From Crambe crambe (lineage: Eukaryota; Porifera; Demospongiae; Poecilosclerida; Crambeidae): 64,000 nucleotides of DNA. A program made the translations under genes and the position numbers. The stretch is from the NCBI GenBank assembly GCA_963924555.1, contig OZ004584.1, forward strand, positions 5,827,001 to 5,891,000. Reading direction: 5' to 3'. The notes under the pieces are model-generated. The model was not told where the DNA came from, did not search any database, and saw only the letters and a program-made list of their open reading frames with translations. Below, piece by piece: positions 28,259 through 57,953 of the stretch; position 1 is the first letter of the stretch, and the number at the start of each line of letters is the position of its first letter.

Positions 28259-30447
28259 ATGGCTAAGCCTATACGAGAGGTTAGTGGAAAGCGTATGCTT
28301 ACACGCCACCTTGAGCACTTACTTGCCGAGAATGGACTGGGAAAGGACTTATCTTTTCCAATGAAGACCGCCACAGTTACTCCGACAACAGACTTCGATA
28401 AGCTAGTGAAAGATAACCCGTGGCTTGCAACTGAGGTGAGTGTACAAAAGCCTAAAAGGCTAAGAGCCAAGCAGGTTTACTATTTAGTGGGTGTGTCATG
28501 CTGTGATATCCCCTCCTTCCCCCCCCCCCCCCCCCCCCCCCCCCCCAGCAACTGGTTGCTAAGCCTGACCAGTTATTGAAAAGACGAGGGAAGCTTGGAT
28601 TAGTGAAGGTGAACGCTAACCTTGGGGAGATTCAGAACTGGATTAGTGAGAGAATGAATAAGGAATTTGCGGTCGACAGTGCCTGTGGGAAGTTGAATAA
28701 TTTCATAATTGAGCCATTCCTGAAGCACTCCTCAGAAGAAGAATTCTATGTCAGGTATGAATTAATAAAATTATCATACAGGAGTCAGTGATGCTATGAG
28801 TCACGCTAGCTAGGCCTTTTATTAAAAATTAGTGTCCAATAGTATAATAATAATGCAAATTTTCCTTCATAGAGACATAAATAGGTATCCAGGTTTTTCC
28901 CTGTTTAGATTTGTGCTAAGCATATTTTCAGCTTTAACCACTTGTTTTCACCCACCCACTTATTCTGTAGTTAAACAATACGTAATGTGGTGTACCACTT
29001 CATTCGCATGTACTTTTCAGTCAAGCAAAAGTCTATCTTTGTATTGAATTTCACAGCCAGTCAGTTAAGGTACCTGCTATACTTCGAATACCTCCTGTAC
29101 TATAGTCATCAGAGATTTCATTATGGGATAACCTCTCTACAACTTCCTACTGCAATTCATTGAAAAGACTCACTGCTATAATATTATTCCTGCTTGAAAT
29201 ATAATCTCATAAATACCTTGAATGGTCCAATAGTGTATTGGAATTAATCTGAAAACTTTCTCTGTAGCTGCTAAATTAATACCTTAAAAATTGAAAAACT
29301 GCTAAATTTCGTACCTGTAAATAATAGTTATCTTAAAGTATTTGTAAATCAATGCAAATTCAGTGCATATGCCAGGTGAATTGTAATTGGCCTTCTTCAT
29401 TTCTTTCTCACACATACACCACACAGTATTCTGGCCAACAGGGATGGAAACAGGGTTCTTTTCCATCATGAGGGTGGAGTGAACGTAGGTGACGTGGACT
29501 CCAAAGCTGCTCATGTTGATGTGGACATCAAAGAGATGCTGACTGCCGAACAGGCCAGGAGTCTGGTGAAGGGAGCACCCATAGAGAAACAGGAAGTCTT
29601 GGTAGAATTCTTGCAATTACTCTATAGGGCGTACTCTGACCTTTATTTCACACTGCTGGAAGTCAACCCTCTAGGTGAGTCTGTATAATGTAGTGTGGAA
29701 GAGGAAGGAAATAAAGAGGATGTCATGTAAACAGTGTGAATGGTGTTGATATACACTAAGTCTTATAAGTGCATGCCTCTAACCTGCTTCTTCCACTTTG
29801 AATATACAGTAATAATTATACTTTCCTTCCTGTCTGGCCATGCCAAGCCATACACAAATGGCAGGTCTATTGACAATATGGCCTGTGACATCATTATGAT
29901 AAACAAATATTGCTCTATATAGTGGACACATAGGACCAGCTATATTTTCCTTAATGGAGATTTGTATTAGCAATTTGATTCCTTGAAAAATAGTTTTTTG
30001 TATTGCGTCCCGAATATAGAGAGTTTTTTTACTAAGAGAGCTTCCACTGTTGTTACACATAGCTGATAACTTTTTGATCACTAACATCTTATCTTCTATT
30101 TTCCTTTCATTATCTTCTCCCTCTGTGTCTGTGTTAGTGGTCCAGGGTAAAACTGTCAACATTCTGGACCTAGCTGCCAAGCTGGACTCCACAGCCGAGT
30201 ACCTATGCAAACCTCAGTGGGGGGACATGGAGTTTCCTCCCCCCTTTGGACGGGATGCCCTCCCCGAAGAGGCCTACATTGCGGACCTGGATGCCAAGAG
30301 TGGGGCCTCTTTGAAGCTGACTGTGCTCAATCCGCAGGGCCGCATCTGGACTATGGTTGCAGGGGGTGGGGCTTCGGTGGTATACAGTGATACTATCTGT
30401 GACTTGGGACAAAGTGGCGAGCTGGCCAATTATGGAGAGTACTCTGG

Positions 30448-30481
<34 letters not shown>

Positions 30482-33400
30482 TGTATGTATGTATGTATGT
30501 GTGGCAGTTAGTGGTTTGCGCTCTGGGCTTGTAAGTGTGAGACCGTGAGTCTCATCAGTGAATTAATTTGCTAGTCAATATAATTATGCCACCAGTCCAC
30601 CCATGCTAGAAATGGGTACCTGGGTGCAAATCAAACTGGCTATCTCTCCAATATGTACACACTGTATAAGTAAGCTGTAGATACTAAAATAAGCAAGGTA
30701 TTCATCATTCATTTGCAGGAGCTCCCAGCGAGAGTCAAACATTCGAATATGCCAAGACCATCCTGAAACTAATGACCAAGGAGAAACATCCTCAGGGCAA
30801 GGTCTTGATCATAGGCGGAGGGATTGCCAATTTCACCAACGTTGCTGCCACTTTCAAAGGCATCGTCCGTGCTCTGACGGAATTCCATCACCAACTTATA
30901 AGCAACAATGTAAGCATCTTTGTCAGACGAGGCGGTCCCAATTACCAGGAGGGCCTACGTGTCATGCGGGAAACCGGAACCAAATTGAATTTGAAGATGC
31001 ACGTGTTTGGACCCGAAACGCACATGACCTCCATCGTGGGAATGGCACTTGGAGCACGTCCCATTCCGAAAAGTGAATCAGCAACGTCTGCACATCCAAA
31101 CACTTTGCTCCCTACCAATGTAAGTTGGCAAGAGGATTTAAGTGGTATTAACCACTATGTTTATAAGCTACAGTAGGATACAGTTGGTTTAGCACAGGAA
31201 GTCTTAACCACAAACACTCATTGTCTCTTGAGTTCTTTCTAGAAACAATGGGCTTGTATAAGCTGTGGTTCATGGGACCTTGGGCTCTAATTTTTGATTG
31301 ACAATGCATGAGTATAACTCTGTTTGCACTGTTTATGTGAGCATTCGGATTGAGTTGGTGTAAATGTTTTCATAGCTCAACATGTAACACGTATGAATTA
31401 AGCACTTGCCAATAGTAAAGTGCCTTCAAACCATCGTGTGAATAAGGCCTATACTGTTACATCTAGATCTCAGCAGTGGGCAAGTTGACTTGTCCTGAAA
31501 TATGAGTCTAATCATAGTTATGATGCCTGACACCTGACATTCTCCAGCCAATATTGGCATGTGTCTGGTCAATTATTTGTTTGTTAGGACAAAAGTACTG
31601 GTCAGAATGCATACTGATGTAATGTGCAGTTAAATGTTAGGACAACCTATAGTTTGTGGGGACATCATGTCCGGTAAATAGCAATTTCTTATCATAAGCA
31701 CTGTAGTACAGATTCCATTTAACTTTCTTTCTTTTTTTTAGGCTCTCTCAGTTCTTCCTTCTTCTCAATCATCATCCACCAATTCCATGAATGAAGATTC
31801 CGGCTCAACACAATCTTCCTCTCCAAGGCTCTCTCGTAGCGTCAATGTAAGCCACACCCTCTCTTTGGAATCTGTATCTCCCACTGATGCATACAAGAAG
31901 CCAATTTTAATTTGAAATAGAATTTCATTGTGTATTAATAGTGAGAAAGTGGCCAATTGGATTTGTGGCTGTGTGCTTTTGTGTGATAAAACCTCAACCC
32001 TCCAGTTTTAATTTTGGATAATGGGGCAATACACTCTGTATGTGCACTTTGAACTTTTGGTTTAGTATTTACTATGCTGTACTACTAATTGTATATCTGT
32101 AGAGTGAACTTGTTTGTGACCCCTGTAGTATTTTTAAAATCCACTTTTTAAAACTTGATCTACATCTAGGTGCACATATGGACCCCTAGCCAAGAGTCTG
32201 CTTTGAAGCCCTCTCCAATGCTCTTTTCCAACTCCAGTGTGGCTATCATATGGGGCATGCAGCCTAGGGCAGTGCAGGTTAGCAAAATTCAATATAAAAA
32301 TAGGCCACAATTACAAAAGGTAAGTGCTTTCTCAATTCTGAATTTCAAAGATGAGGAGATAGCTAGCTAATTTTGTGATGTTCCTCCTGGTGGTGTCTTG
32401 TCTGTTATCATCATTCAACATAGCTCAGTTACTTTAGGTAGCTATACCAAGTGAACATAAAGTGACTGGATTGACGTAAGTGATGAGATGCCAGACTAGT
32501 GTTAGTGATGGTGTGGTGGTGGTGAGGTGAAGGGAATGCTACTGCGCATCTGCAATTGTCTAACTCACTCATTGGGCATATCTAAAGTCAGTGTTAATTC
32601 ATCTCATATTGTTAATGGGATATGGGAATGGGATATACACTGAGAGACAGATAGCTATCAATTATTATACTTTAACTTCAGCTAGTATAATGTAGCCTCG
32701 TCCCCAAATAATTGTGTGTGGAATCGCCTGGGGAGACGAGGACAAGTATAATGCATGTGTAGCTATATGAAGTGAGCAAGGCAGAGCTATGTTCCCCTCC
32801 TCGATTATCACATTCAAGTGTGCAAAGTGGAGCTGCACACATCCAAGCTTGCATGCTCCAGTATTCATCAATTCTTGATCTGTATGCACCCTTGCATACT
32901 CCAGTATTCCAATCGTTTGCATTCAAGTACGCAAAGCGGAGACACCCTTGCATACTCCAGTATTCCAACCATTCTGATATCGCTCACATTCAAGTGTATT
33001 ATACACCCTTGCATACTCCTCACTTCAGTTGCTCAAGTATTCCACAGAGCTGCTTGCACCCTTGTATATACTCCAGGGCTTAATTCAGGATTTTGCTCGA
33101 GGGGGATCAAATGCCTAGTGAAAAAATTTGAGGAAGGGCAACTACAAACCAGTACAGGTATGTGGAACTCTATGATAATCTCATTACGAAAGCTAACTAA
33201 TTCCTAGGGGAGGCAAGCCATCGTTCAGAGGGGGCAGAAGCCCCCTCTTGCCCCCCCCCCCCCCCTTGAAATAAACCCTGTATGCAAGTGTTAGTGACAC
33301 ACCTATTCAGTTGCAGGAACTTTATGCGCAATAGCACAATTATTTTGTATGTGGTACTGTTGCTTATATAGAGTTTGACTGCATCATCATTATCACAACG

Positions 33401-36209
33401 TGAATATCCCTTGCTACAAACACACATTCAGCTAGGCTGGCATAGTTCCAGCTCTATGATCAGCCATTATGGGTTATGGCTACTCTGTTTACTGAAGGGA
33501 ATATTTTGTCTTCATTCACAGGTTGCATGTATATCCATAGCTCTATGGTTGTATCTGATACCAAATCATTTGATTAGTAAATCATTCATTGAGCATGTGC
33601 AATATACATACTGTATAGCTATTAAAGGTCAGTATTACTCATAATATGGTAGCTACGTAGTTGCAAAATTTTAATAGAGAAGTCTCTTCACTACAATAAT
33701 TATGGAAGATGATGATGTGTATGAATTGATGGAACATACTGGAGCTGTCTCATCCATGGATAAGAATCCATGCTATAGTATTCCCTCAAGATTTCAACCG
33801 AAAAATCCGTCTGCATCTGTGATTTCTTGTAAAGTCGAGACCAAGTCGAAGAAGCCTGTTTGGAGTTGGGTATGCATAGGCTTACTTGTCGGATTCGTCT
33901 TGATAGGCAATGCAGCATTCATAAGCATTACTATTAGATATGGGAGGGCATTACAACAGCTTCAGGCTGAACATCATACTGGTAATTCAAAAATAGATGT
34001 ACTGTTAACTACGATTGGACAGAACTCGATCAACCCTGCTGCTTCATGTTCCCAAATCTCGCTACTTAATCCCTCTTCCCCATCAGGTCACTACTGGATC
34101 AGGTTTCCCAATCGCTCTATTGTACGTGTGTGCTGTGACTTTGACGGACAGTGTGGTTGTGTTGGACCAGTATCTCTTGGTCTCACTAAATATAACCCTG
34201 CCAGGTCTTGCAGAGAACTTGCTGCATGTAACAGCAGTCTTTCTGATGGTTACTACTGGATTCGTACACAAGGATCTTCAGTCAGGGTGTACTGTAATTC
34301 TTGGAATTTGACACAAGGATGGATGAGGGTGGCCTACATAGACATGAAGAACACCAGCCACCAGTGTCCAAATGGACTGACATTATTCTCAAGGAGTTCA
34401 CCACCAAGAAGAGTGTGTAATGTAACAATTACTAGTGGATGTGTTAGTACTACCTTCACTGTCCATGGGGTAGAGTACAGTCACGTGTATGGAAGAATCA
34501 TTGGATATCAGCTTGGTGCACCTGCTGCTTTTTACTATCACACTTACACCATCGACCAACCATACATCTATGGAGTGAGTTTGACTCATGGACAAAATCC
34601 CCGCAAACATATTTGGAGTTTTGTGGGAGCACGTGATGAAGCATCAGACAATGGACAATTGAAATGTCCTTGTAGCAACATGAATATCTCTCCACCACCA
34701 ACTGTTCCTAGCTATGTTGGTAATGATTATTTTTGTGATGCTGGAGTCAGATCATTTGCTAGCCAGGGATTCTTCTCTTCTGACCCCCTCTGGGATGGAG
34801 TGGGATGTGGCCCCACCAGTACTTGCTGTTCCTTTAACAACCCTCCATGGTTTACCAAGAATCTTTCTTCTCCCACCACTGATGATATAGAGATGCGGTT
34901 ATGCTCGGAGGATACAGCTGGATCCACACCAATTGAAGTAGTGGAACTCTATGTACAGTAAACTACAAGTAGCTATTAAGTAGGAACTATTGTATAATAG
35001 ATAGATTATTAGATTGTTTGTTTGTGTGCATCATTGTAGATTCAATTGGCCTATAGCTAATTGCCAGTGAGCATGGTAAATCCAAATTATCGTATGCTAG
35101 ACCAGTAATATTTTTCAGCGAGCGAGCTGACTCTCAGGTCATGACTCATAGAAATTGGGTCTACACTCCAAAATGCTCCCCGGCCCCAGGCATACGTACG
35201 GTACGTATGTACATGTCCCGAATTAGTAGGATCAAGAGTGTAGAAAACTGATCTTGATCCTTTAGTTTGTTTGTGTATGTGTGTTATTTGTTTTTTTGTT
35301 TGTTTTTTGTTGTTTTTTTGTTTGTTTTTTAAGTGTAGCTTTACCCAATTAGTAGCGCTGTGCGTGTGCATAATGCGCATGCTCCAATTGTAATCAAGCT
35401 AGATTGTTTTCTACACCCTTTTGTCTAGAGGCACTAGTTTTATCTAAGTGGATTGTAGGTACTTGTGTAGGTGCTTGGCTTATCTAAGTGCTTGTGGTAA
35501 GTATTTACAGCTTTCTATGTATGGAGCTTTCTGGTTGAAACCACAACTTACATGACTCTTATCTCTGACAGTAATATCAAGCACTGGAGCCTATCAGCTG
35601 CTCACTTGCTCACTGTCAGTAGTTGTTGTAGAGGCTCTAGGCTTATTGAAGCTATGTTACATATGAACTCAACAGCAAAATCTTCTAAAGAGCACTAACT
35701 TGCTTGCTCGCTCGCTGTCAAAAATAATATTGCACATTGCCCTAGTAATATTCAAAATTGTACTCCCTAGTTTTATTTATTAAGCTAGCTACTATACTGT
35801 AGCATGCTTGATAGTAGTGCGTGGCTAGCAGCTGCCGTATGGATTTTTGGTTCTATACTTCGTCTCTCCCTGACCAGAAGGGGCACCAGGGCTGCTAATA
35901 GAGTCATAACAGAAGTAAGCCAACATTTGAATTCTTCGAAGTACGGCAAGTTCATGCCTGAATGACAACTTGCATTGTGGAACATGTCACAAGTACCTTC
36001 AAACTCGAGAAGAATTTTCAGAATTTTACGTATAAGATTGATAGTGCAATTCCTTGGATGCTTAAATTGCAATTAAAGGCATTTGAACTTGAAGGAAGAA
36101 TGATGCGGATTCAAAATTCTTTTAGTATCTAATCACTTGAACTTCAATCAAGATTATTGAACTCAGAACAGTTGAACCCTGCTGCTTCCAGTTTCCGTGA
36201 ATTCAACCC

Positions 36210-36241
<32 letters not shown>

Positions 36242-39200
36242 ATATATATATATAAAAATCAGGTCACTACTGGATCAGGTCCTCCAATGGCTCGATCTGC
36301 TGTGCATGTGTACTGTGAATTCAACAGGCAGTGCCACTACTAGAGGTTTTAATGAACTAGTTACCAGAAATGAAACAATTGATGGACCATATGTTGATGG
36401 TGTCTCTCTGACTCATGGCAGTGTGGGTTCTTGACAGCATATCTGGTCCTTTGCTAGTGCTATGGGAGAAGCAAGGTATCATTACATGGCAGCTGACTTG
36501 TGTGCATGTAGCAACAGCGATTCCTGGCCTTTAACACATCTTAATTAGATGCATGTCAATTTATTGACAGTCTAGATCTCGATCCAGCTGTTAGTAAAGT
36601 TAGACAGGACAGAATCTAGCTATTATTTTTTGAGCATAGCTAGCTACACTTGATGAGACTGGTATCAATTCAAAATAATTTGTATATAGCTTATCGTAAT
36701 GCTCAGCTATAGTTAGCCATGCACAGGATATCTCTCAGTTGTGATAACAGTACAAAAGGCTATGGTTCCAATCTCTATTAGTTAACAAAAAAAGTTCTAC
36801 AACACAAATGAAGATTTATTATAATTTGAGTTACTGCACATAAAGTTCTAGAAACTGAATAGGTGTGTCTCTAATATCTCCACTGTCACAGATCCTAACC
36901 TCTAGGTCATCAGTTGTGGACTGGGAGAGGGTCTTATAGAACCATGGAGGGTTGTTGAACTGGCAGCAGGTGCTGGAGGAACCACACCCCTGACCGTCCC
37001 ATTGAAGTAGAATGTATGAGGACTAGTAGTTGCATGGTTAATTTTGTTCACATATGCAGCAAAGCTGTAACTATATTAATTCTTTGAGGTAAGCTGCTGA
37101 ATTAGCATGTAGCTAGCTACTCATATCAGTTGGGCTTTGACTTCCTTTGATCAGTGACCATCAGTTGGGCTTCATTGGCCTGTGACTTCAGTAGACTTTG
37201 CAGATCAGTAGCTAACCTTCATTTCCTACTATAATCCTTGGCTCTTCATATCAAGAACCTACTGAGAGAGTAAGTGTTGCTGCTCGCGCGCATGCTTGAG
37301 CGTACGTGCCGTTTTTTTTTGAACGCTAAACTGCAACGTAACGGACCGCTACAAGTGTACGTGATGGGACGTCGTAGACATTCGCATCATAAGGGTCGGC
37401 AAGCTGATTCTCATCAAGCTGATTCTGATTATCGTAAAGCTGATTCTGATTATCTTCCCGATTCTCGTCCTGATTCTCGTCGAGCTGATTATCGTGATTC
37501 TGATTCTCGTAGAGCACATTCTCGATCTCGTAAACGTTCTCGTAAAGCTAAGACCAAATCAAGCAAATCAAGCAAGACTGTTTGTACTTGTATATGCATG
37601 TCCTTACTTTTTGTATTGATATCGATGGTCAGTGGAGCATTCATATATATGACAATTAGACATGATAGAGCAATCGGGGAACTTCAGACTTCTTCGAGTA
37701 GGATTAGTAATAATGGTACTAATCAAACAAAATTAGATCTACTATTAAGTACTATGGGACAGAACTCGGTCGACCCTGCTGAATCATGTTCCCAAATCTG
37801 GACGTTGAGGCCCTCTTCACCATCAGGTTACTACTGGATCAGGTACCCCAATCGCAGTATTGTACGCGTGTGTTGTGGCTTTTCCACACATGAATGTGGT
37901 TGTGTCAGACAGGAACATTTGAACCCTGGTCTCACCAGATATAACCCTGCCATGTCTTGCAAACATCTTGCTCCATGTAGCCTTCCTGATGGTTACTACT
38001 GGATTCATATACAAGGTTCCATCATGAGAATGTACTGTATTAACAATGCAACTTCTGTGAAACCAGTACGAGGGTGGACAAGGATTGGTTATATAAACAT
38101 GAATAACCCAGACCACCAGTGTCCCAGAGGATTAACCTTACTGACAAGGAGGGAAGAACCAAGAAGATTATGTGATATGACCGCTATTAGATGTATCAGT
38201 TTCTCTTATCATACATATGGGATAGCTTACAAGCATATATATGGAAGAATTATTGCATATCAGTATGGAGATCTCCCTGCATTTTACTACAACATATCCA
38301 GCATTGATGGGCCATACGTCTACGGAATAAGTCTTACTCGTGGTGATACGAATCTCGGTGATTCACGCCAACATATTTGGACATTTGCGGGAGCACGTGA
38401 TGAAACAGTGGATAATAGACGATGGAAATGTCCTTGTATCAATACCAACTTCTCTCCACCACCGCCTGTCCCTAGTTTCATTGGTAATGATTACTTTTGT
38501 GATACTGGCATCAGCAGATATAGTTTAAATGAACTAGTACCCGACAACCCTCTCTGGGATGGAGCGGGATGTGGTCCTACCAACACTTGCTGTTCCTTTA
38601 ATAACCCACCGTGGTTTGTCAAACACTTACCCTTCCTCAGTAAAGATGATATAGAGGTGAGAATGTGTCGACCTAACTTTGATGGAAGCACACCATTCCA
38701 AATTATCGAAATCTATGTATACTGACATTTTAACAGAAACAGCACCGAAATTGTGTCTCCAAATAATTATATGAAGAGTATAGTACAAGAGTTATGTATA
38801 CATGCATGTACATGGACATATAACTTGGCTTATTTAATTAACTATGTGTAGTTATGTAACTCATATTTTTGCTCTATTTTATATATTGTTGCTGTACCAT
38901 AGCATTTGTGGACCATCCAGGGGTCCAGGGATTTCCCAGGTCCTCATGTCCTTGGACCTTATACCGTAGAGCGGGTAGGAAAAAATTCCATCATATCCGG
39001 AATCGTTATACTAATGAAAAAAATTGAACGGATAAATCTTCACACATGTACATTGAAGACGAAATTTTTCCCCCGCCCAGTTTCTGTTGAAGCACAAAGG
39101 CAGGTGGACTAGCTATTTCGAGAGAGACACTTGCATTTGTGGCTATCATGAATACAAAGCTATTTGGGCTGCTGCTGTAGGAGAGGAGCTGGAGTGTAGG

Positions 39201-42200
39201 CGAGAACCAACTAACCTCGTTAGACATCTTAAATGTATGGACCTCTCTTTTAATCTGAGACTCTTCCTGCATCTCTTCAACTGCACAGCACTGTTAGCCG
39301 CTTCTATAGCCTTGATGGTGTTAAAGCGGACAATGGTCCAGATGAGCATTATAAGCTTCATTATGGTGATTTCAACATACAATTCACTAGAATTTAATGA
39401 ATGTGATGCAAAAACTAGAATTGTGCTGTTCGAGCATTCAAACCCAAGATGTGTGGAGCACACCTCTTGATCCTGACAAATGTCCTGTAAGAATTTTTGA
39501 AAAAAAGAGACCATCAGAAATGGGTGAAGTTGGCTCACCTTTTTATTTACCAATCAATTAACAAAGCCTCTTGTGATGATCTGTGGTACAAACAGCAGAG
39601 AATGGGAAAAGATAGAATTGGTTCTATTACGAAGAGAATGGCATGTAACTGTAACCATTCGGCACGAAAAAACATGGTTACAGCACAAGCACAAAAAACC
39701 ATGGTTACCAACAAAAACGTACCTGAGACTCAAATCATTCAGCTCACTGGTCACAAAAACCTTCAGAGTCTAAATTCTTATAAAAAGACATCCATGGAAT
39801 AGCAAAAGGACACATCAAGTCATGTACTGAGTTCATATTCAGCTCCAGCTAAGACTCCCACACCCTCTGGCCTTGGAGATGTGAATGACCAATCTCACCA
39901 GTTTTCCAGTCCTTTTTTTTACTACAGGTTATACAATAAATGTTTGATTACCATCGAGCCATACACAGACCCAACAGAGCGTTTCTAGAATGTATATCTG
40001 AACAGTTATGACTTATCATTAGAGTAACTGCAAAATAGTGAACTTTATTATCTTTAAAATTATGCAAAGATTTCCTAAGGGGACGTAATATGACTTTGCA
40101 ATGTGGTAATATATCACCCAGTTGTGATACTACTATTCTCTATGGAACATACTCAGTAGCTACATAATAAAGTGTTTTATAAACAGATTTAGGCAAAGTA
40201 TACATAAGTCCCAATGGAAAAATTCCAATGTATACGGTATACGTAGCTCACAAAAGATCAGGAGGCATATACAGTAGCTATCAAAGAATTGTGTCTATTG
40301 AACCATGCAAGAGGAACAGACTTATGAAGTACCAGATTTTAAGGGACGTGATGAAAATCCAGAGTATGATATTCCATCGAAGTTTACACCAGCAAGTGTG
40401 TCCACATCAGTTACTCATCGTCAAGATAAGTCCAAGTTGAAGAAGCCTGTTTGTAATAGTTTGTGCATGTGTGTACTAGTTGGATTCATCTTAGTAGGTA
40501 GTGCAGCATTTGCTAGCTTGGCTCTTACAGTGTGGAATATCTCACAAGTCAGCCATCAGAATCCTTCATCTGGATTCAACGATAGAATCGCAATTATTGT
40601 GAATGATAGCATATCAGAATTTGAAAGAAAGGTTCAGTCAGTTATGAATGGGAGCATTTTCAAACTTGAAAGAAGAATATCTCAACTCCAATATTCAATG
40701 GATGATCATATTGAACTTCAGACTAACATTTCAAGGTCACTGGATTCAAGAATAAGTATCATACATCAGTATTTGAGTGATCAGTATTCAGACTCTCCTG
40801 CTACTTCATGTTCCCATGTCTTGCTGTTGAATTCCTCCTCCCCATCAGGTCACTACTGGATCAGGTCCTCCAATGACTCTGCTGTACGTGTGTACTGTGA
40901 GTTCAACAGGCAGTGTGGTTGTAATGGACCAAGTACGTGGACTCGTGTGGCCTTCCTCGACATGTCAGACCCCAACCACGTCTGTCCCAGCAACTGGACC
41001 ACCATCGCTACCCCAGTGAGGGCATGTGGGAGGGGACAGAGCAGCAGAGAAGGTTGTGATTCTGTATCCTATTCCACTTTTGGACTGACTTATAGTCGTG
41101 TGTGTGGACGTATAACAGCTTTTCAAGATGGTATTCCCGATGCCTTTAGACCATTATTTTCTGAAGTAAAAATCGATGGAGCATATTTAGATGGCGTCTC
41201 TCTGACTCACGGTGAAAAGGAATTTAGACAGCATATCTGGTCATTTGCTGGTGCACCAGGGGAAACAGGAAACGTTGACTCTCGAAGGGTGTGTGCTTGC
41301 AGCAATAACAATAGCTGGCCACTTTCAACATCTTTTGTCGGCAACGACTATTTTTGTGATTCTGGCAGTCGTGTTGTTGACATCAAGCGAATATTCTACC
41401 CTGGTGATCCCCTCTGGGATGGCCAGGGATGTGGTCCCTCCAGCACCTGCTGCCAGTTCAACAACCCTCCATGGTTCTGTAAGACTCTCAACCAGTCTAC
41501 CACTGATGACCTGGAGGTCAGGATCTGTAAGAGTGGAAGTGACGAAGATACACCTATTCAATTGCTAGAAATTTATATCCAATAGATTCAGCTGATAGAG
41601 TTTTGTATCCAGTAACCTCTAGAAACCTGCATAATAAACATGTACTCCAAAACACATTACATAATGTTATTAATTTCACAGTCATGAAGTTTATTTGTAG
41701 CTGTTACTATTGAAAATGCGTAAGTGATTTTTAGTTTTTGTGAACATTTACAGAGTTGTTAATCATATTATATATACTTATTACCTGTTTAGTAACTTTA
41801 TCTCATTCTTGAATACTAAAACAGTAGTAGCAGCTTAACAGTTATTTGAATCTTTATCTAATGTTGGTGTAGTAGTGGATGAATTCCTGTGGCCTTCCTC
41901 AACATGTCAGGCTCGCATATAGCAGTTTTCGTGAACACGCATCAAAATTATGCTGCCTTCAATAATAATCCCTACATCACTGCCTAAACCAAGCAGAATA
42001 CTTTTACACTGACATGAACAATTAAAGCAGCTTGGTGGGAGGCAGTGATGTGGTTGAAAGTGTTTGTGTTTGAGTTGTAGTAGCTAAAAAAATTACATGT
42101 ATTCCTGTTATCCTTACAAGTGAAGGGAAAAAATTCATACCAAATAAGAAGGCCATGTAGGGTTAGTTATCTATAGCAGTTTCTGTGAGCATCAACATTA

Positions 42201-45200
42201 TGCTGCCTTCAATAATAGTCCCATAATCTATTCAGCTGGTTTTCATTTGCATAATTATAATAATAAGGAGTAAATAGAGTACTTTTGCTTCATATGCAGC
42301 CCCAAAGACGAGTTTTCATCATTAATATTATAGTTATGGAAACTCATGGGAAACTCTGCCAAACAAAAAGTCCATATTTAGAAAGTTCCTTTTCTAAAAT
42401 TGCATAATACTAAAATATTAATGGACTAACAGTCGCTAGGGAGGCAGATTTCCTTCTTCATGTTAAACCATGGAAGAGGAACACACTGAACACGCTTACG
42501 AATTACTTCTCAAGGAAGCTGTCACATCTCGGGCTCAGTATGAAAGTCCTTGCAATTGTAGTTCAGTGAATGTGTCTACATCAGTAACTCCTCATCAAGA
42601 TAAGTCCAAATTGAAGAAGCCTATTTGTAGTTGGTTGAAGATGTGTGCACTAGTTGGATTCATCTTAGTAGGTAGTGTAGCATTTACTAGCTTGGTTCTT
42701 ACACTGTGGAACATCTCAGAAATAAACGAATTACTGAGTGGACGATATTCAAACTTACCTGCTGCTTCATGTTACCACATTTTTCTCTCAAATTCTATCT
42801 CTCCATCAGGTCACTACTGGATCAGGTCCTCCAATGGCTCTGCTGTGCATGTGTACTGTGACTTCAACAGGCAATGTGGTTGTGATGGACCGAGTACGTG
42901 GACTCGTGTGGCCTTCCTCAATATGTTGGACCCCAACCAGGTCTGTCCCAGCAACTGGACTACCATCTCTTCCCCTGTGAGGACATGTGGAAGAGTGAGA
43001 AAGAATGGACGTGGTTGCAATTCAGTGTTCTATTCCACTTTTGGACTGACCTATAGTCGTGTGTGTGGACGCATAATAGCCTATCAAAATGAAAACACTG
43101 ATGCCTTTAAGGGACTAGTCTTCTACTCTGGTATAGATCGACCGTATGTTGATGGTGTCTCTCTGACTCACGGCAGTGTGGGGTCTCGTCAACATATCTG
43201 GTCCTTTGCCAGTGCTATTGGTGAAGAAGGTCCCTTTCAACCATATTGGCTATGTGCATGCAGTAACAGCAATAACTGGACAAATTCAACTTTATTTGTT
43301 GGAAAGGATTACTTCTGTGACTCTGGCAATCATGATGAAGTTGTTCCAGGTATTTTCCAATCCAATGACCCTCTCTGGGACGGCCAGGGGTGTGGTTCTG
43401 ATAGCACCTGCTGCCAGTTCAACAACCCTCCATGGTTCTGTAAGACTCTCCCCCAGTCCACCACTGATGACCTGGAGGTCAGGATCTGTAATGGTGCAAA
43501 TTCAGATACACCTATCCAGCTATTGGAGCTTTATGTACAGTAGAATGTAACTCATCCTCCTGTTTTACAAATAATGTTGCATAGCTTTTTGTTGATATGT
43601 GCAATCATTTTTATTTAATCCAATAGCTGTTTATGTTGTTTGAGATTCCACGTGTGTGCACTATGTAGTTGGATTCGTCTTAGTAGGTAGTGTAGCTTGG
43701 CTCTTACAGTGTGGAATTCTTCATAAGTCAACCATCAGAGTTCTAGTGCTGCTAAACTCGAGCAGATGATAACAATGCTTCAGAACAGCACATCAGAACT
43801 TGGACAAAGAATACTGCAGCTTCAGAACTCTGTGAATGAATTCCAGGGTGATGTTTCTTCTGAACTAGATATCATCATTCAATCATTAATGAGTGGAGTG
43901 TACTCTAATGCACCTGCTTCATGTTCCCAAGTCTTGCTGTTGTATCCCTCCTCCCCATCAGGTCACTACTGGATCAGGTCCTCCAATGGCTCTGCTGTCC
44001 ATGGGTACTGTGACTTCAACAGGCAGTGTGGTTGTGATGGACCAAGTGGGTGGACTCGTGTGGCCTTCCTCAATATGTAAGACCCCAACCATGTCTGTCC
44101 CAGCAACTGGACCACCATCACTTCCCCCTTGAGGGGATGTGGGAGGGAGAGGCTATGGACAGAGGTTGCATTCTATTCCACTTTTGGACTGACCTATAGT
44201 CGTGTGTGTGTGGAAACACTGACGCCTTTAAGGGACTAATTGAACTCTCCTTTCTTATCGATCAACTGTATGTTGATGGTTTCTCCCTGACTCATGGCAG
44301 TGTAGGATCTTGTCAACATATCTGGTCCTTTGCCAGTGCTATCGGTCCCTTTTGGCTGTGTACATACAGTAACAGCAATGACTGACCACATTCGACTTCT
44401 TTTGTTGGAAATGATTACTTCTGTGACACCGGCAACCATGGTGGTAATGCTCCGCATCGTATTTTCCACTCCAATGACTCTCTCTGGGATGGCCAGGGAT
44501 GTGGTCCCTCCAGCACTTGCTGCCAGTTCAACAACCCTCCATGGTTCTCCCAATCCACCACTGATGATTTTGGTGGTCAGGATCTGTAAGAGCTTGGAAT
44601 GTTTTAATTATGCCATGACGTTTTATGACTAACATAGCACGCGCGTGGTGATTCGCAACTGAAAAATCAGCACATGCGCAGACAGTGGCAACCAGGCTCT
44701 CTTTTCCTTCCCCCTCCCCCTTCCTGAGAGCCTGGCGCAAGGCTATGGTTCATAGTGCCTGCTTAGTGCACAGGCTCCTGGCTTGACCAGGTGCGCGTGA
44801 CCGCTCAGTGGCAACTATTATGATTTCCATTGCATTGCATGCAGTTTGTGCATATTTGCATGCATGCATTGCATACATATGTATATAATTATTGTGTGTG
44901 TGGTATTGTGATCATGACTGAGTGGACCACAAACATGACTGTGATTAGAAAACTGATCATTGACTGAGATTGGAAAAACTGACTGAGATTAGAAAACTGA
45001 TCATTGACTGAGCATGAGATTTAGCAACTAGCTATTCAAAGAGCCACATAGCTACTGCCTTATGCATGACAAGAATACCATTGGTTGCACAAGCATGTTT
45101 GTTGTTATAGAGTTGAATTACTCTCAGCAGTATCTAACACAATATTTATAATAGTTATTTGGCATAAAAGTGAGTGGATTTGTTTAGTGTACACTGTTAA

Positions 45201-48200
45201 CTGGTTAGCTACAAAGTCATGGAAGAAGCAAATGCTTATGAATTGGTAGATGCAAAATGCATCACAACGCTAGATCTTAATCCTTCCTATGAAGTTCTTT
45301 CAACTTCAAATCAAATTAAAAGTGTTGTCACATCTGAAAAATCTCAGCAAGTGAAGTCACAGTTGAAGAAACCTACTTATCGTTGGGTATGTTATACATT
45401 TGCACTAGTTGGAATCATCTTAGTAGGTAGTGCAGCATTTGCTAGCTTGGCTCTTACAGTAAGGAATTCTTCACAAGTCAACCATCAGCGTTCTAGTGCT
45501 GCTAAACTCGAGCAGATGCTAACAATGCTTCAGAACAGCACATCAGAACTTGGACAAAGAATACTGCAGCTTCAGAACTCTTTGAATGATTATAATGAAT
45601 TCCAGGGTGATTCTGCTTCATGTTCCCAAATCTTGCTGTTGAATTCCTCCTCCCCATCAGGTCACTATTGGATCAGGTCCTCCAATGACTCTGCTGTCCG
45701 TGTGTACTGTGACTTCAATAGGCAGTGTGGTTGTGATGGACCAAGTACATGGACTCATGTGGCCTTCCTCAACATGTCAGACCCCAACCACGTCTGTCCC
45801 TGCAACTGGACCACCATCACTTCCCCCTTGAGGGCATGTGGGAGGGGAGAGGATATGAACCGAGGTTGCAGTTCAGTGTACTATTCCACTTTTGGACTGA
45901 CCTATAGTCATGTGTGTGGACGCATAATAGCCCATCAAAGTAGAAACACTGACGCCTTTTTGGGACTAATTCAACACTCCTTTCTTATCGATCAACCATA
46001 TGTTGATGGTGTCTCCCTGACTCTTGGCAGTGCAGGATCTCGTCAACATATCTGGTCCTTCGCCAGTGCTATCGGAGAAGAAGGTCCCTTTCTAACATCC
46101 TGGCTATGTGCATGCAGTAACAGCAATAACTGGCCACATTCAACTTCTTTTGTTGGAAATGATTACTTCTGTGACACCGGCAACCATGGTGATAATAATC
46201 CATATCATATTTCCCACTTCAATGACTCTCTCTGGGATGGCCAGGGATGTGGTCCCTCCAGCACTTGCTGCCAGTTTAATAACCCTCCATGGTTCTGTAA
46301 AACTCTCAACCAGTCCACCACTAGTGACCTGGAGGTCAGGATCTGTAAAAATTCAGGTCCTGATGATACACCTATCCAGCTTTTGGAACTTTATATACAG
46401 TAGAATGGAAATTAACCTGTGATGCTAAGCTTATTGATAACAAACTTCTTACTCCTGATACATTTCTGTAGTGTTATGTATTTGACAATAATGACGACAT
46501 ACCTGCCAGCTATTTTCAGTACTATTAATTAAGCTGAGTGTTATTTTTATAGCACTATTATAGGGTGTTGTACAGAGTTTTTTTTTTATGTCTATGTGCT
46601 TCCATGTACTTTATTTTTTGCTTCCAATGTCATTAGTGATAATTACTATACGAATAATGACCCATTACTAGACAAAAAATCAAAGTGGCAAAGTGTCCCT
46701 AGACCACTCTGAGCTGGATTTCCTTCTTCAAGATAAACCATGGATTCTGAAAAGGAACACCTCAATTCTCAAGGAAGCTCTTACCGTGTGGGATATTACA
46801 AGAGTCGATCTTCAAAAACACTTCAATGATAAAATCGTAAATAATAGCATATAAAGATTCTGACAGTTATGAATGGGAGCATAATATTTTCAAACTTGAA
46901 AGAACAATATCTTAACTAGTATCAATGGACTATCATATTGAAATTCAGACTAACATTTCAAGGTCTTGATAAGTATCATTCATCAGTATTTGAGCAATCA
47001 GTATTCAAACTCTCCTGCTACTTCATGTTCCCATGTCTTGCTGTTGAATTTCTCCTGCCCATCAGGTCACCTCCAGCAACCCTCCATGGTTCTGTAAGAC
47101 TCTCAACCAATCCACCACTGATGACCTGGGGGTCAGGATCTGTAAGAGTGGAAGTGATGAAGATACACCTATTCAATTGCTAGAAATTTATATCCATGCA
47201 GTAGATTCAGCTGATAGAGTTTTGTATCCAGTAGCTAAACAACCTTTAGAAACCTGCATAAAATTAAACCATTTATTTACACTGTTATCATACCAAGAAA
47301 CACAACACTATGTAATGATGATGTGATTAATTTCACAGTTATGACAACTTTCATGAAGTTTATGTAGAATGTGAAATCTTAGCTGTTACTAGCACCATGT
47401 TTATCAAAATGTGCAAGTGATTTTTTAGTTGTTTGCGCACATTCTGTTTACTATTAGGACTGTATCTGATTCTCAGATACTAGAAGTAGTGATAAAACAA
47501 TAGCATCTCAATGTAGTGCATAGTAGCAGCTATTCGAATCTTGATCTTTATACTTTTCTTTCCAAGTAATGAACAGACGTACGCCACATAGATTGGTGGA
47601 TGGGAAAGAAGTTGTCGCATCTATGAACAAGAACCAATCCTACCATATTCCAAGATACAGACAAAGTTCATCCGTACCTTCTGAAACTTCCTTTAAGGAT
47701 GAGAAATCCGAGCCCATGTACATTGGTTTTTTTGTGTGTGTGTTAGTTGGATTCGTCTTAGTAGGTGGCGCAGCGTTTATCAGCATGGCCATAATGTCAT
47801 GGAATATTTCACACATGAAATATCAGATTTCCAAGCTCAAAGCAGTAACTGCACAGCTTCAGGTTTTCGTGAATGAAAATATGTCCAGGCTTGAAAAGAA
47901 AACTCAAACAACTACAAATGATAGTGTGGATAAACTTGAAGGAAGAATAATGATACTTGAGAATCATGTAGAGAATGCGGTTGAACTTCAAGCAATGGCT
48001 TTGAGGTCATTAGATTCTAAAATTAACGATGTCGTTTTTCAGATGATCCATTCTTCTTCGTGTTCCCACATCTCGTTATTGAATCCCTCTTCTTCATCAG
48101 GTTATTACTGGATCAGGTCCTCCAATGGCTCTGCTGTGCATGTATACTGTGACTTCAACAGGCAGTGTGGTTGTGGTGGACCAAGTACATGGACTCGTGT

Positions 48201-51200
48201 GGCCTTCCTCAACATGTCGGACCCCAACCAGGTCTGTCCCAGTAATTGGAACACCATTTCTTCCCCCGTAAGGACATGTGGGAGAGGACTGAACAGTAGC
48301 ACTGGCTGTACTTCAGTATTTTATCCCATATTTGGTATTCCCTATATCCGTGTGTGTGGACGCATAGCGACCTTTCAACATGGTTATACCTATGCTTTCC
48401 AGCCATCCTTTACCACAGCAGTGGGGATAGATGGGCCATATTTAGACGGCGTCTCCCTGACTCATAGCAGTAAAGGATCTCGACACCACATCTGGTCGTT
48501 TGCCAGTACAGCAAGAGCTGTGAGACTCTCCAATAGCGATGTTTGCGATTGCACCAACTGCAATAATAGGCCATCGTTTGTTGGAAATAATTTCTTTTGT
48601 GAAACAATCAATCATAATAGTACTTTCTCCACTAACATGCACTCTGATGACTCTGTCTTTGATTGTGATGGGAGTTGTATGTCCTCAAAGACTTGTTGCC
48701 TGTTCAACAACCCTCCATGGTTCTGTAGGACGCTCCCCCAGTACACCACTGATGACCTGGAGGTCAGGATCTGTAAAGATGGCAACGACAAAGATATACC
48801 TATTCAGCTGCTAGAACTGTATATCCAATAGAAATGTCATCATGATAATTATTATGAATTTGCATAAAAATAAGACAGCTACTTTAGCTCTGATTGGTTG
48901 TACGTTATTTCAAAGGTATAGAGCCAGCAAAGTGTGATCAATGTAGTGTCATTCATGATGAAGAAGGTTAAGGGAACTGCAAGCGTTGGTAGGACCATGC
49001 CCCAGATCAGGATGCAATTAGCTACATTTGCTGGTCTTTGAAATTCAAAGAATTGAGAAGTACTTTCAGGGCCATTACATACATACATGCATGCATGCAT
49101 GCATACATACATACATACATACATACATACATACATACATACATACATACATACATACACACACTCCTGATAATAATTATTAATGTGATTAATTGTAGGG
49201 GATGTTGGATTTTGACCACATCTGCTCCAGAAAAACACCATCAGTGGCTGCTATGGTTTATCCCTTCAGGTGAGGTCATTTTAAGTCTATAATATGTGAA
49301 GGTACTCTACCTCTCCTGTTGTTTCTCAAACAATTACTTACTTCAAAATTGTTCCACATAATATTATGATAGTTGGACTAAGGTAAATGTATTATGGAGG
49401 GCTAAATCATGAGTACAATTTCAACCTGGTACTGTTACTTTATGATGACAACACCTTTTTGTTTTTATAGTGGGAACCACAAGCAGAAATTCTATTGGGG
49501 GCACAAAGAAATCATGATACCTGGTAAGGCACAGTCAACTAACATGATAGTCATGATAATTGATAATGCATGGAATTTCTCACAGTGTATAAAGAGATGT
49601 CAGAAGCAGTCAGTAAGCACACTGACGCTGATATCCTTGTCAATTTCGCTTCTCTCCGATCTGCTTATGATGCCACGGTGGAAGCCATTGGGTATGGACA
49701 GGTATGTGAGCATTGTATTCAAGAAAATCTCCTCCCCTAAAAAATCTGATATTATGATTTCCTTATGTTTTATAGTTTAAGACGATTGCCATTATAGCCG
49801 AAGGGATTCCAGAGAACAAGACCAAGAAGCTAAACAAGATGGCCAATAGCGAAGGAGTTACTATCATAGGACCTGCCACTGCAAGTCAAGCTAATCTTGT
49901 TGTTGTTGTTGTTGTTGTTGCTGCTGATGCTGTTGTTGTTATTGTTTTTTGTGTAATACTGCTCTGTAGAAAATAGTGATCTTGCATAATGTGCTTATCT
50001 CTATCGTTACACTAGACCTTGTGTTATCACATGACTATCATGTGACTTGCAGGTTGGTGGCATAAAGCCAGGCTGCTTCAAGATAGGCAATACTGGAGGT
50101 ATGATGGACAACATAGTCTCGTCTAAACTGTATCGCCCAGGAAGTGTGGCATACGTGTCCCGATCTGGAGGCATGTCCAACGAACTCAACAATATCATCT
50201 CCAGGACCACCAATGGTGTTTATGAAGGTGTGGCCATAGGAGGAGACAGGTTTGTCCTTTAAAGTACACTTAAAAAATTGTGTGTGATTTTGGGGGTTTT
50301 ACATGTTGATAATAATGAGAACTAATTTTTCACATAATCATTGTGTGGGGGATATCAACAAGCAGCATAATTAATTTTTAACAAAAATGAAAGCTTAATG
50401 GTATGTAATCGATTTTCATGTTCCTTGTTCAATAAGACTAATTAACAAAAAATTTCCTCCAATTAATTCATATTAGGTATCCTGGAAGCACATTTATTGA
50501 GCATGTGAGACGTTATCATGATGACCCTAATGTGAAGATGATCGTTGTACTGGGGGAGGTAAGTACAAAGCTGGGTTATGGAAGATACTTTACCCAAGCT
50601 GAACTCTCACCCACTCACCTTTTTGTGACAGGTTGGAGGGATAGAGGAATATGCTATCTGTGATGACATCAAGAGTGGTCGCCTGTTCAAGCCAGTGGTG
50701 GCGTGGTGCATAGGCACCTGTGCCCGAATGTTTACAGCCGAAGTTCAGTTTGGCCACGCCGGAGCTTGTGCCAATGCAGACAGAGAAACTGCTCTAGCAA
50801 AGAATAAGGTGAATACAAGCCACCATCTATGTATGGATGGAGGATGAATGTTTAACTATTAATTCATGTAGGCTTTGCTTGAAGCTGGAGCCCATGTTCC
50901 TGATAGCTTTGATACTTTGGGCACAATCATAGGGTAAGCTTGTATGCACTACTCAGTGTTTCCCCCAGTATACTAAATGCAGGGCAGGCCACCCTATTTG
51001 GATATAGAACTTCAAAGAAAGTGGACTGGGTCTATGGCACTAATTGAATTATATTCTCATGAATATGTGACCCAATTTGAGAAAAGGGACCACTTCACGC
51101 AGAATTTTAAAATGGAGTTATTAGTACCACGCTATAGCTCATTGCCTTAGAAGTTCATTGATACTACGCTTGAAGCTAGATCTTAAACCGCCGCGGAGCT

Positions 51201-54200
51201 ATAAGCGCTAGAAGTGCATCGCCTCAGAGAAAGATTCAATAAGCGTTTTGCAATAAACCGCGTCTAAACATTGAACTTCCGGTCAATACCCAATTCTCCG
51301 TAAATCTCTACGTGAGTCCGTATAATACGATGACATCATTCAATTTTTCTTACCTCGTGTAGCAGCTGGGCAGAGAAGAAGTAGACTTAGCTTTACTGCG
51401 TTCTTATCTTTGAGCGTTTGGGTGATCTAAGATATACAAGACATGGGACAAGCTCTAAACAATGATCAGGTAAAGTTTGGGTAGATAGCTGTTTGTAAAT
51501 GCATAGTGTACAGTAGTTGTAAAATACTGGTAAGTTTTATTATCCTATCTCTATGTTTTAAGCTTTATTAGTTGATTCGTATGGAAGCAGTGTTTGTCTG
51601 GGTTGGAATCTAGACACTGGTGTGATCAGGGCTGTGTTTTTCATTGTCAACAGGCCTGGAGTTTAAGGAGACAGATTAACTTCATTCAGCACCTCCAGAT
51701 CGGGATTTTCTGACCTGTGAAGTTGGATGGCTTCTACCACAGCCTCTTCCTATCTGTAGCTAGCTAAATATGTGTAGCTAAGTTGTGTATTCAGTAGAAA
51801 CAATCGATATGAAAATTCATTATTATGTGGGGATTTCCCCTTATTTCCGCGCACTATGCTCTTACGTCCTCCGTAATTGAACATTAAAATTTGGGCACGT
51901 AGGATGTGAAATAAGTTCCGGGTGAGGTAGCTCTCTTCAACTCGAGCGCTTGCCTACTTCAAAGCCTTCCCACTTCCTGAAATTTGGCAGGAAGTTAGAC
52001 AAAGGACTGAAGATACTGTGGAGGCAATAAAAAAGAAGTGAATAAAAAAATTAATTTTACCTAAGGCTAACTTTAAACGCGCATATCTCAAAATTAAATC
52101 CTGCGTGAAGTGGTCCCTTTTCTAAAATTATATCACATATACTTAACCACCCTATTTGAAAGTACAGCTAGGGGAGACTCTGACTACTCTTATTGAATAA
52201 ATATATACTTATAGTGAAATTTATTACTCTATTCGTTTTATTAAAATGGGTAAAGATGCTTGAATGCTGCCGTCTTTTCCTTTAATATAGTGAAGTGTAT
52301 GATCAACTGATAGCAGCAGGTCTGATAGTGCCGCAACCGGAACGAGACCCCCCGAAAGTCCCAATGGACTACAAGTGGGCGCAGGAGCTGGGACTCATAC
52401 GAAAGCCTGCTAGCTTCATGTCCAGTATCTGTGACGAGAGGGGGGAGGAGCTACTCTATGCAGGCATGCCCATATCTGACGTCTTTAAGGATGATATTGG
52501 AATTGGTGGGGTTCTGAGTCTTCTGTGGTTCCAGAGAAGGTATTATTATTATCCATGTCATCCCAAAATTAGACTCATCTAAACAGACTGTCCTATAAAG
52601 AGACCACCTCTCTATTAAGGCCTCTGCCATATTCCAGACCTCTTTAAAGAGACTACTCTCTGATAAGGGCAGTCTACCGTGTCCCAACAATACCTATTCC
52701 AGACCTCTTTAAAGAGACCACTCTCTGATAAGGGCAGTCTACCATGTCCCAATAATACCTATTCCAGACCTCTTTAAAGAGACTACTCTCTATTAAGAGC
52801 AGTCTACCATGTCCCAATAATACCCTTTCTAAAAAGACCACTCTCTAATAAGGGCAGTCTACCATGTCCTAACAGTACCTATTCCAGACCTCTCTATAAT
52901 GGAAAAGGATATCTCAGTTGACCTAATAGAATATCCCCTCAATGTGTGGCTTGCTCCTGCCAATTATCAACATTCTCTATCTCTTGTTAGATTGCCAGAT
53001 TATGCTTGCAAGTTCCTTGAGATTTGCCTGATGGTGACAGCAGACCACGGACCGGCTGTCTCAGGTGCCCACAACACCATTGTCACAGCCCGAGCCGGCA
53101 AAGACCTCATCTCTTCCCTAGCCTCTGGAATACTCACCATTGGAGACAGATTTGGAGGGGCTTTGGACGGAGCTGCAAAGATGTTCACTGAAGCTTATGA
53201 CTCCAACATGATCCCAATGGAGTTCGTTAACTCCATGAGGAAACAGCATAAACTGATCATGGGAATAGGCCACAAAGTCAAATCGGTATGTGATACCAGT
53301 ACTCTAGATTTTGGTGCCATATGATTCTATAGGGCGGGCCATCCCCTAACATTTCTATTTAGTGCACTCACTTGTGCATGCTGAGTCATCATTTTGATTG
53401 TAAGCTAATGTGGTATGGTAGGAGATACATAATAATAATAGTGTAAATTTTGTGGTGTAAACCTTTTCGTGGGTTTACAGGCTTATAATGAATCCCTTGT
53501 ATTAATTATTTTTCAAAACTGCAAATCCACGAAAATTTTATCCCACACAAATTTCACACTATAAGGATATGTTCTGGTGGGCATAATGTATCATACCCAT
53601 GAAAGTACTTAATTATGTGACATTGTGCAGTTGAATAATCCGGACATGCGAGTAGAAATCATTAGGGACTATGTTAAAGCCCATTTCCCAGCCACACCCA
53701 TTCTCGACTATGCTCTCGAGGTGGAAAAGATCACCACATCAAAGGTAATATGAAACTTATTAATTAAAATCACATACGTATAATAATTATCCTTTGTAGT
53801 AGAATTTTTCATTTCTGTTCCTCTTTGTATGTTTAGAAGCCCAATCTGATCCTGAATGTTGATGGTGTGATTGCAACCAGTTTTGTTGACCTTCTGAGAC
53901 ACAGTGGTGCTTTCACACGGTAAGTTGATCAGTAATGGTAACCAACATAACATGTTGGCACTCCGGTTTGATGAAATCGTCCCATAAATTTCTATGACCA
54001 GTTGGAATATTGTAAAGAGCCACAATAGCTTACAAGGTCACTCATATTGCATATAGTTGCTTTTATCCAGTTATAGACAGATTGATGACTGATATTTGAT
54101 TTCAGCCTAGAACTGGATTTTATGGTCTATATGACTATTACAGTGTTATTATTTTGTTTTACAGGGAAGAGTGTATGGAATACATTGAGATAGGGTCACT

Positions 54201-57691: not shown

Positions 57692-57953
57692 ATGGAACTG
57701 CCAGTAGATAATATCTATGAGTTGATTGATAGGTGTTGCGCCTCTTGACACATCCATGGAGTATAACCCTTGCTACCAAGCAGCTCCAAAGAAGCCCACA
57801 TCAAGCTCAAAGAAGTCGATTTGTACTTTGGCTTCATCTTGGTAGGTAGTGCAGCATTTGCTAGCTTGGGTCTCACACTGTGGCACATATACTATCAGAG
57901 TGTTGAGATTAAGATGGATTTAATGCAGCTTCAGGCTTCTATGATAATCACAT
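57692..57953 (+). pseudogene. Truncated 5' copy of receptor paralog 7
   Basis: Starts MELPVDNIYELID like paralog 7, then loses 8 bases (frame change and TGA) and later 22 bases, which together restore the frame for [20 protein letters not shown] and the first stalk residues (LMQLQAS). It ends abruptly at the duplication boundary, so it has no ectodomain. Confidence 0.88.

Follow-up and report, generated by a model that had tools for sequence, protein, structure and literature searches.

The 64-kb window that we analyzed (C6:5827001-5891000 of a 143-Mb genome in 119 contigs, C6 being the window's contig) carries a gene for ATP-citrate lyase (ACLY) whose seventh intron contains six intact single-exon open reading frames (ORFs) for members of one receptor-like family, 357 to 477 amino acids (aa) long, together with four fragments. 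The explanation that best accounts for the observations overall, and one that we hold with considerable confidence, is that intron 7 of a single intact ACLY gene hosts a block of autonomous single-exon receptor genes. The host gene is laid out as follows (window positions, strand, identity and basis).

28259..32277, plus strand: ACLY coding exons 1-7 with introns 1-6, the 5′ half, residues 1-518 (exon model, human ACLY match)
32278..49198, plus strand: ACLY intron 7, 16,921 bp, donor CAG/GTTAGC, acceptor TTGTAG/GGG (exon model, splice scores)
32278..32319, plus strand: putative 14-codon extension of exon 7 via donor AAG/GTAAGT at 32320 (splice score)
49199..54476, plus strand: ACLY coding exons 8-21 with introns 8-20, the 3′ half, residues 519-1107 (exon model, human ACLY match)

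The corrected ACLY model, whose 21 coding exons were placed by eye with splice junctions listed, encodes 1,107 aa with zero internal stops. Residues 34-1106 align with residues 28-1098 of human ACLY (1717 bits, phmmer), and in this alignment the protein is a single fused chain spanning both synthetase parts and the citrate-synthase-like part. An initial annotation of this DNA had described an intact RAVQ/GMLDFD exon joint split by 16.9 kb, and the complete model bears this out: exon 7 ends in RAVQ at 32277, exon 8 starts with GMLDFD at 49199, the intron between them is in phase 0, and human ACLY carries an uninterrupted RAVQGMLDFD at this position. The remaining 19 ACLY introns measure 62-1,357 bp, compared with 16,921 bp for intron 7, and both of its splice sites score inside the gene's own range (donor 7.5 bits, with other ACLY donors at 2.5-10.8; acceptor 7.3 bits, with other acceptors at -5.8 to 10.4). 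An in-frame donor at 32320 reaches 12.2 bits, versus at most 10.8 for ACLY's other donors, and the candidate 14-residue insertion that it would create (32278-32319) sits near the subunit-fusion region of the enzyme. Separately, ACLY intron 11 (window position 49881) is apparently of the GC-AG type. Because the citrate-binding domain PF16114 occurs in the genome only at C6:5857251-5858053 and exon 17 is found once, we conclude that ACLY is a single-copy gene.

The placement of intron 7 within the protein brings to mind a split enzyme, wherein the two halves of ACLY would be transcribed as separate genes (or trans-spliced) with the receptors merely lying between them. Homology to the B subunit begins at residue 499 and the intron follows residue 518, which puts the break close to the subunit junction of split enzymes; furthermore, 16.9 kb separates the halves, and the second codon of exon 8 is an in-frame ATG (49202) that could start a B-like protein. 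However, the 20 residues that begin the B part stay with the 5′ half, and both splice sites are intact, in phase and exactly restore the human sequence. We give such a split very little credence. Under the nested arrangement that we favor, the host RNA polymerase would read through the receptor block, and the 16.9-kb intron would be excised whole, joining 32277 (or 32319) to 49199.

Within the window, receptor genes were taken as intact frames and fragments were located by tblastn. The coding parts of the nested genes lack introns, and the array continues past the 3′ end of ACLY with two further intact genes on the same strand (R7 and R8) and one fragment; pairwise protein identity among R1-R8 is 31-78%. 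The initial annotation counted six related open genes and three wrecks, all on the host strand except one inverted fragment. The six genes and their orientation hold, whereas the number of wrecks is four.

33702..34961, plus strand: R1, nested, 419 aa, subfamily A (intact ORF; PF01410 COLFI, 48.8 bits; tree)
36055..36536, plus strand: receptor fragment (tblastn)
36834..37001, minus strand: inverted fragment, the C-terminal end of a receptor gene (tblastn; inverted repeat pairs)
37292..38725, plus strand: R2, nested, subfamily A, 477 aa (from ATG 37292) or 453 aa (from 37364) (intact ORF; tree)
40305..41585, plus strand: R3, nested, 426 aa, subfamily B (intact ORF)
42470..43543, plus strand: R4, nested, 357 aa, subfamily B (intact ORF; flank homology)
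43646..44571, plus strand: broken receptor copy with a frame change (tblastn, two frames)
45219..46403, plus strand: R5, nested, 394 aa, subfamily A type tail with subfamily B ectodomain (intact ORF; tail/head comparison)
46741..47197, plus strand: receptor fragment (tblastn)
47569..48831, plus strand: R6, nested, 420 aa, divergent subfamily B (intact ORF; tree)
57692..57943, plus strand: R7-like gene fragment, 3′ of ACLY (tblastn)
58676..59923, plus strand: R7, 415 aa, outside the intron and 3′ of ACLY (intact ORF)
60476..61750, plus strand: R8, 424 aa, outside the intron and 3′ of ACLY (intact ORF)

A pyrimidine tract with AG at 47545-47568 abuts the start codon of R6 and is a possible 3′ splice site of an intron in the 5′ untranslated region.

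Assembly is difficult where genes are in tandem and heterozygosity is high, and this family is large and partly near-identical, all of which would favor an artefact in which an array fragment was wrongly placed in ACLY. However, there is no N anywhere in the window, and a second assembly source, consulted through a protein database clustered at 90% identity, gives a single contig size for both sides of the intron. The ORF of ACLY exon 17 is best matched by P0121 (98% over 87% of the query) and exon 5 by P0241 (100% over 83%, 2 contigs), and in both cases the longest contig is 826,340 bp; the three differences between P0121 and the window ORF fall in intronic read-through, outside exon 17. The same size is given for P0002 (R3, 94.6%), P0037 (R4, 99.4%), P0033 (R5, 97.7%) and P0003 (R7, 89.2%), a linkage drawn from matching sizes rather than from contig names, positions or gene order. 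Because ACLY exons from either side of intron 7 and the putative alleles of R3, R4 and R5 share this contig size, an assembly error behind the nested array is unlikely, and misplacement of an array fragment in particular strikes us as extremely improbable. The objection that the lyase halves might not belong together is thus answered as far as contig sizes allow. Thirteen sampled family loci have their best match on the 826,340-bp contig, and since 11 of them match at 91-99% (L013 matches at 100% and L016 at 76%), this contig appears to represent a different haplotype, or a different individual, of this species. Proteins from contigs of 443,541, 391,627 and 756,013 bp include 100% matches to this genome's copies.

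Judged by their predicted features, the receptors resemble type II membrane proteins with a tyrosine-motif tail, a coiled coil and a collagen-propeptide/fibrinogen-like head. First, a hydropathy peak follows a tail of 52-75 residues in all eight window genes, and a structure model of R8 contains a helix at residues 60-136 with modest confidence. Second, 29 of 48 tails carry at least two YxxPhi/P motifs, compared with a mean of 4.8 and a maximum of 11 in 500 control shuffles, and four of the six nested genes are among those with two or more. The spacing of these tyrosine pairs is looser than in the immunoreceptor tyrosine-based activation motif (ITAM), and many of the motifs end in P. Third, COLFI (PF01410, curated Pfam cut-off 26.2 bits) is above cut-off in three of the eight window genes (R1, 48.8; R2, 26.4; R7, 27.6) and below it in R3-R6 and R8, with the best stretches spanning merely 42-69 of 233 profile positions in the N-terminal part of the head. 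Profiles from the Protein Data Bank (PDB) match the head to collagen propeptide and fibrinogen, and to intelectin and an angiopoietin-related protein only above E 0.001, while the top Foldseek matches are weak ones to procollagen C-propeptides. Each nested gene would encode a type II protein built of a short cytoplasmic tail that usually carries paired tyrosine motifs, a single transmembrane helix, a coiled-coil stalk and a head rich in cysteines. From this architecture we infer oligomeric surface recognition proteins, immune or self/non-self in role, that may signal through tyrosine phosphorylation. Among relatives on C15 with an intact frame, the hydrophobic segment begins within the first 6 residues in six of eight, with no preceding tail, and these six (L043 and L045-L049, about 5.24-5.40 Mb) look like secreted versions of the receptor.

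The ectodomains bear the mark of coding constraint. In 19 pairs, 14 of which include a nested gene, dN/dS over the last 285 residues is below 1 without exception (0.23-0.51 by NG86, 0.23-0.64 by YN00), which fits the maintenance of the nested genes as protein-coding units. The six would be separate, constrained genes, presumably with promoters and ends of their own.

The family extends far beyond this intron. The R8 query returns at least 117 genome matches (some of which are parts of a single gene); those listed lie almost entirely on C6, clustered at 4.85-4.94, 5.43-5.65, 6.25-6.45 and 6.54 Mb. The R1 query returns at least 204, which take in a second subfamily, at C6 5.68-5.78 Mb, as well as relatives on C10, C12, C15, C17 and C19. 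The family therefore exceeds 100 genes, most listed ones on the window's chromosome, and this figure is a lower bound because the R8 and R1 searches scored the best 99 of 724 and 100 of 742 candidates. For comparison we collected 63 loci, dropped 8 (window repeats or non-receptor) and 13 (without an intact frame), and joined the other 42 to the eight window genes in an ectodomain tree of 50 rows; the 42 are those that match R8 and R1 best, not a random draw from the family.

This tree speaks to how the receptors came to lie in ACLY. R1 and R2 pair with each other (98/87) within a larger 100/99 group that also contains 15 outside genes (C6 5.70-5.78 Mb, C10 and C15), and R3-R6 fall with R7, R8 and 25 outside genes in a 100/100 group. 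Recent expansion in situ from one founder is therefore unsupported, since the nested genes belong to two well-supported groups that each contain outside genes. The conclusion that there are two subfamilies rests on the tree; a count of label changes (2 for 'nested') set the nested genes against just two others, R7 and R8. The nested genes are also the more divergent, with a median identity to the nearest paralogue of 70.9% (n = 6) versus 86.1% for the 42 outside loci (Mann-Whitney p = 0.006), a difference to which near-copies outside ACLY contribute by raising the outside median. The best-scoring genome-wide match is 54% for R6, 55% for R2 (to R1) and 68% over its length for R5. The initial annotation had pictured a family expanding inside the lyase gene, and this picture gives way to one of two subfamilies with many outside genes, a far larger family outside than inside, and nested members that are the more divergent. 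Conceivably, the family has an old origin inside the intron and spread outward later.

The common strand of the nested genes needs no host-related cause, because outside clusters are about as uniform: among the R8-query matches listed, 18 of 18 are on the minus strand at 4.85-4.94 Mb and 14 of 14 on the plus strand at 5.43-5.65 Mb, and all but three in the 6.25-6.45 Mb cluster are on the minus strand. A strand bias imposed by the host was accordingly set aside as unneeded. Recent segmental duplications in this last cluster, the main one, are suggested by near-identical pairs (L003/L004 and L008/L010, C6 6.33-6.44 Mb) whose members lie about 10 and 64 kb from each other.

Rather than growing recently from one founder, the block may have been assembled by exchange. 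By comparison of its parts, R5 is a chimera, with a subfamily A type tail 87.5% identical to that of L041 (C6 5.70 Mb) on a subfamily B head 76% identical to that of L026 (C6 6.43 Mb). Tail and head have neighbors from different subfamilies in three of 45 genes with both known (R1, R5 and L041), of which R1 hinges on a tail match that is weak at 45%, while L041 is there as R5's own partner. The flanks of R4 match members at 6.3-6.4 Mb on both sides (5′, 68% over 216 bp; 3′, 89% over 148 bp), which therefore indicates copying at the DNA level with flanks included and leads us to reject retroposition of a spliced mRNA, at least for R4. Putative alleles tell a similar story. R3 and P0002 diverge in roughly their first 60 residues, and beyond these a single substitution separates them; conversely, R7 and P0003 have the same first 128 residues but different heads; and P0029, the counterpart of R8, ends early and carries an extra coiled-coil block. 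The allelic status of these pairs was assigned from identity together with contig size. Taken together, these comparisons suggest that tail and head modules have been swapped between haplotypes and paralogues. DNA of the two subfamilies would have been duplicated into the intron, or exchanged with it, as whole genes or as tail or head modules, with partner clusters about 0.1-0.2 Mb away on one side and about 0.4-0.6 Mb away on the other.

How transcripts of the nested genes might end was approached through canonical poly(A) signals (AATAAA/ATTAAA), sought within 800 and 300 bp past the stop codon, two windows that were picked after looking at the data. Within 800 bp such a signal follows one of the six nested genes versus 36 of 44 others (p = 0.003), and within 300 bp one of six versus 21 of 44 (p = 0.21); when each of the 25 flank clusters is represented by a single member, the p values are 0.002 and 0.185. 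R7, which is not nested, likewise lacks a signal. Intron 7 as a whole holds 10 sense and 20 antisense signals (0.95 versus 2.16 per kb in its non-coding part), and the ACLY gene outside intron 7 holds 11 sense signals in 9.3 kb. The flanks of non-nested relatives have 1.03 sense versus 1.94 antisense signals per kb upstream and 1.73 versus 2.35 downstream. Given the nearly equal asymmetry upstream of these relatives, general purging of poly(A) signals from intron 7 is unsupported. The scarcity after the nested stops is at most a hint of adaptation to the nested seat, and we treat it as a lead only.

These counts also bear on the possibility that the array acts as a switch, wherein some ACLY transcripts terminate within the intron or are joined by splicing to a nested gene, coupling enzyme output to receptor transcription. 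The product would be a truncated N-terminal ACLY of about 550 aa, like the separate N-terminal subunit of two-subunit ATP-citrate lyases. Translation past exon 7 indeed stays open for 30 codons before a stop, and the intron begins only 20 residues into the B-homologous part. Human sense nested genes induce exonization, intron retention and cryptic polyadenylation of their hosts (PMC3192792). Promoter interference, premature polyadenylation and co-regulation, which the initial annotation raised as possibilities, may occur at the ACLY intron. Terminators in use should leave canonical signals after the nested stops, where such signals are instead few; even so, the intron does contain 10 of them on the sense strand. 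On balance we regard such a switch as improbable.

Several observations weigh against the view that intron 7 is simply spliced out around autonomous, functional receptor genes. The donor that makes the human-type joint at 32277 is weaker than its neighbor at 32320, and for five of the six nested genes the 800 bp after the stop contain neither AATAAA nor ATTAAA, leaving their 3′ ends unexplained. Paralogue dN/dS averages over long times and is no proof of each gene's present function, and the tree program flags long branches, those of R2 and R6 included. A family-like 5′ flank was not found for R1, R2 or R6, and for R3 it covers only 59 bp. Finally, the R2 tail is charged and has no YxxPhi/P motif, R6 has only one, and Foldseek returned zero matches for the receptor head at E 0.001.

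A more ambitious account, which we consider rather doubtful when its parts are taken jointly, would give the ACLY intron two roles in the recognition-receptor system of a demosponge, as a shelter and as a hub of exchange. Because an essential enzyme would be broken by unequal crossing-over with outside copies, old receptor lineages would persist in the intron, and gene conversion would swap signaling tails and recognition heads separately, between haplotypes and between clusters. Strong poly(A) signals at the nested gene ends would have been removed by the host, and the chromosome around ACLY would form a polymorphic locus, linked to the enzyme gene and immune or self/non-self in role.

The host organism can be placed from a single peptidase C1 frame at C15:865500-866000, which reads CGSSYAF rather than CGSCWAF. 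This change of the active-site Cys to Ser in a cathepsin-L-like protein is the hallmark of silicatein, and the genome is very likely that of a demosponge. Silicatein is tied to demosponges (PMC10282587). Two other frames lie near the array: a minus-strand open frame of ~510 aa at 55080-56612, right after ACLY, with a multi-membrane look by eye, and a single-exon ORF at 62571-63731 with a DUF4097 (toastrack) match that is weak and under cut-off.

The arrangement offers a clean natural case of how a central-metabolism gene survives same-strand genes in one intron, and it lets one ask whether a seat in an intron alters the turnover of a fast-evolving receptor family. To our knowledge, the self/non-self receptors of sponges are poorly known, and this family, with its more than 100 genes, paired tyrosine tails and modular haplotypes, is a concrete candidate for sponge recognition. 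Among the open-licence papers listed by our searches on tandem or multi-gene nests we came across no array of receptor genes within an intron, and we found no description of the receptor family in the titles or abstract openings of the papers that our literature searches listed.

The initial annotation had called the nesting unusual, a judgment that is too broad, since nested genes are common in animals. They make up about 10% of exonic bases in human (PMC8527503, PMC10282587) and about 12% in the ctenophore Hormiphora californensis, many of them parallel to the host (PMC8527503); 12.4% of genes are nested in the glass sponge Aphrocallistes vastus, and counts in other sponges range from 0 to 5,032 (3,358 in Amphimedon) depending on annotation (PMC10282587). 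What is striking is a block of fast-changing recognition-type receptors in one intron. As in the Hormiphora and Aphrocallistes nests, whole genes lie in one unrelated host intron with many on the host strand (PMC8527503, PMC10282587), and in Hormiphora a host can hold up to several nested genes, with four in one host gene in a figure legend (PMC8527503). The ACLY intron differs in holding six intact members of one tandem family, plus fragments, with the family continuing beyond the host. Human sense-strand nested genes such as CHML in OPN3 are likewise single-exon coding genes within a host intron (PMC3192792), whereas the ACLY intron has a tandem block with few canonical poly(A) signals after its genes, and interference of the human kind would be hypothetical in ACLY.

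At the protein level, the sponge heads have a profile likeness to fibrillar collagen C-propeptides and fibrinogen-related proteins at their N-terminal part, and a weak fold likeness to procollagen C-propeptides. Unlike in fibrillar collagens, the COLFI part is predicted to sit on a membrane anchor with a coiled coil, and COLFI is the one profile above a Pfam cut-off, over part of the head and in three of eight window genes. At Alr/fuhc-type loci allelic polymorphism predicts fusion or rejection, whereas for the sponge genes there are sequence differences between haplotypes alone. The mammalian natural killer complex is a tandem set of type II receptors, each with a tyrosine-motif N-terminal tail, a helix, a stalk and a C-terminal recognition head. 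The sponge family resembles it in the predicted order of parts, in tandem arrangement and in haplotype diversity, but the sponge head is COLFI/fibrinogen-like rather than a C-type lectin, and the immune role and ligand binding of the sponge family are putative.

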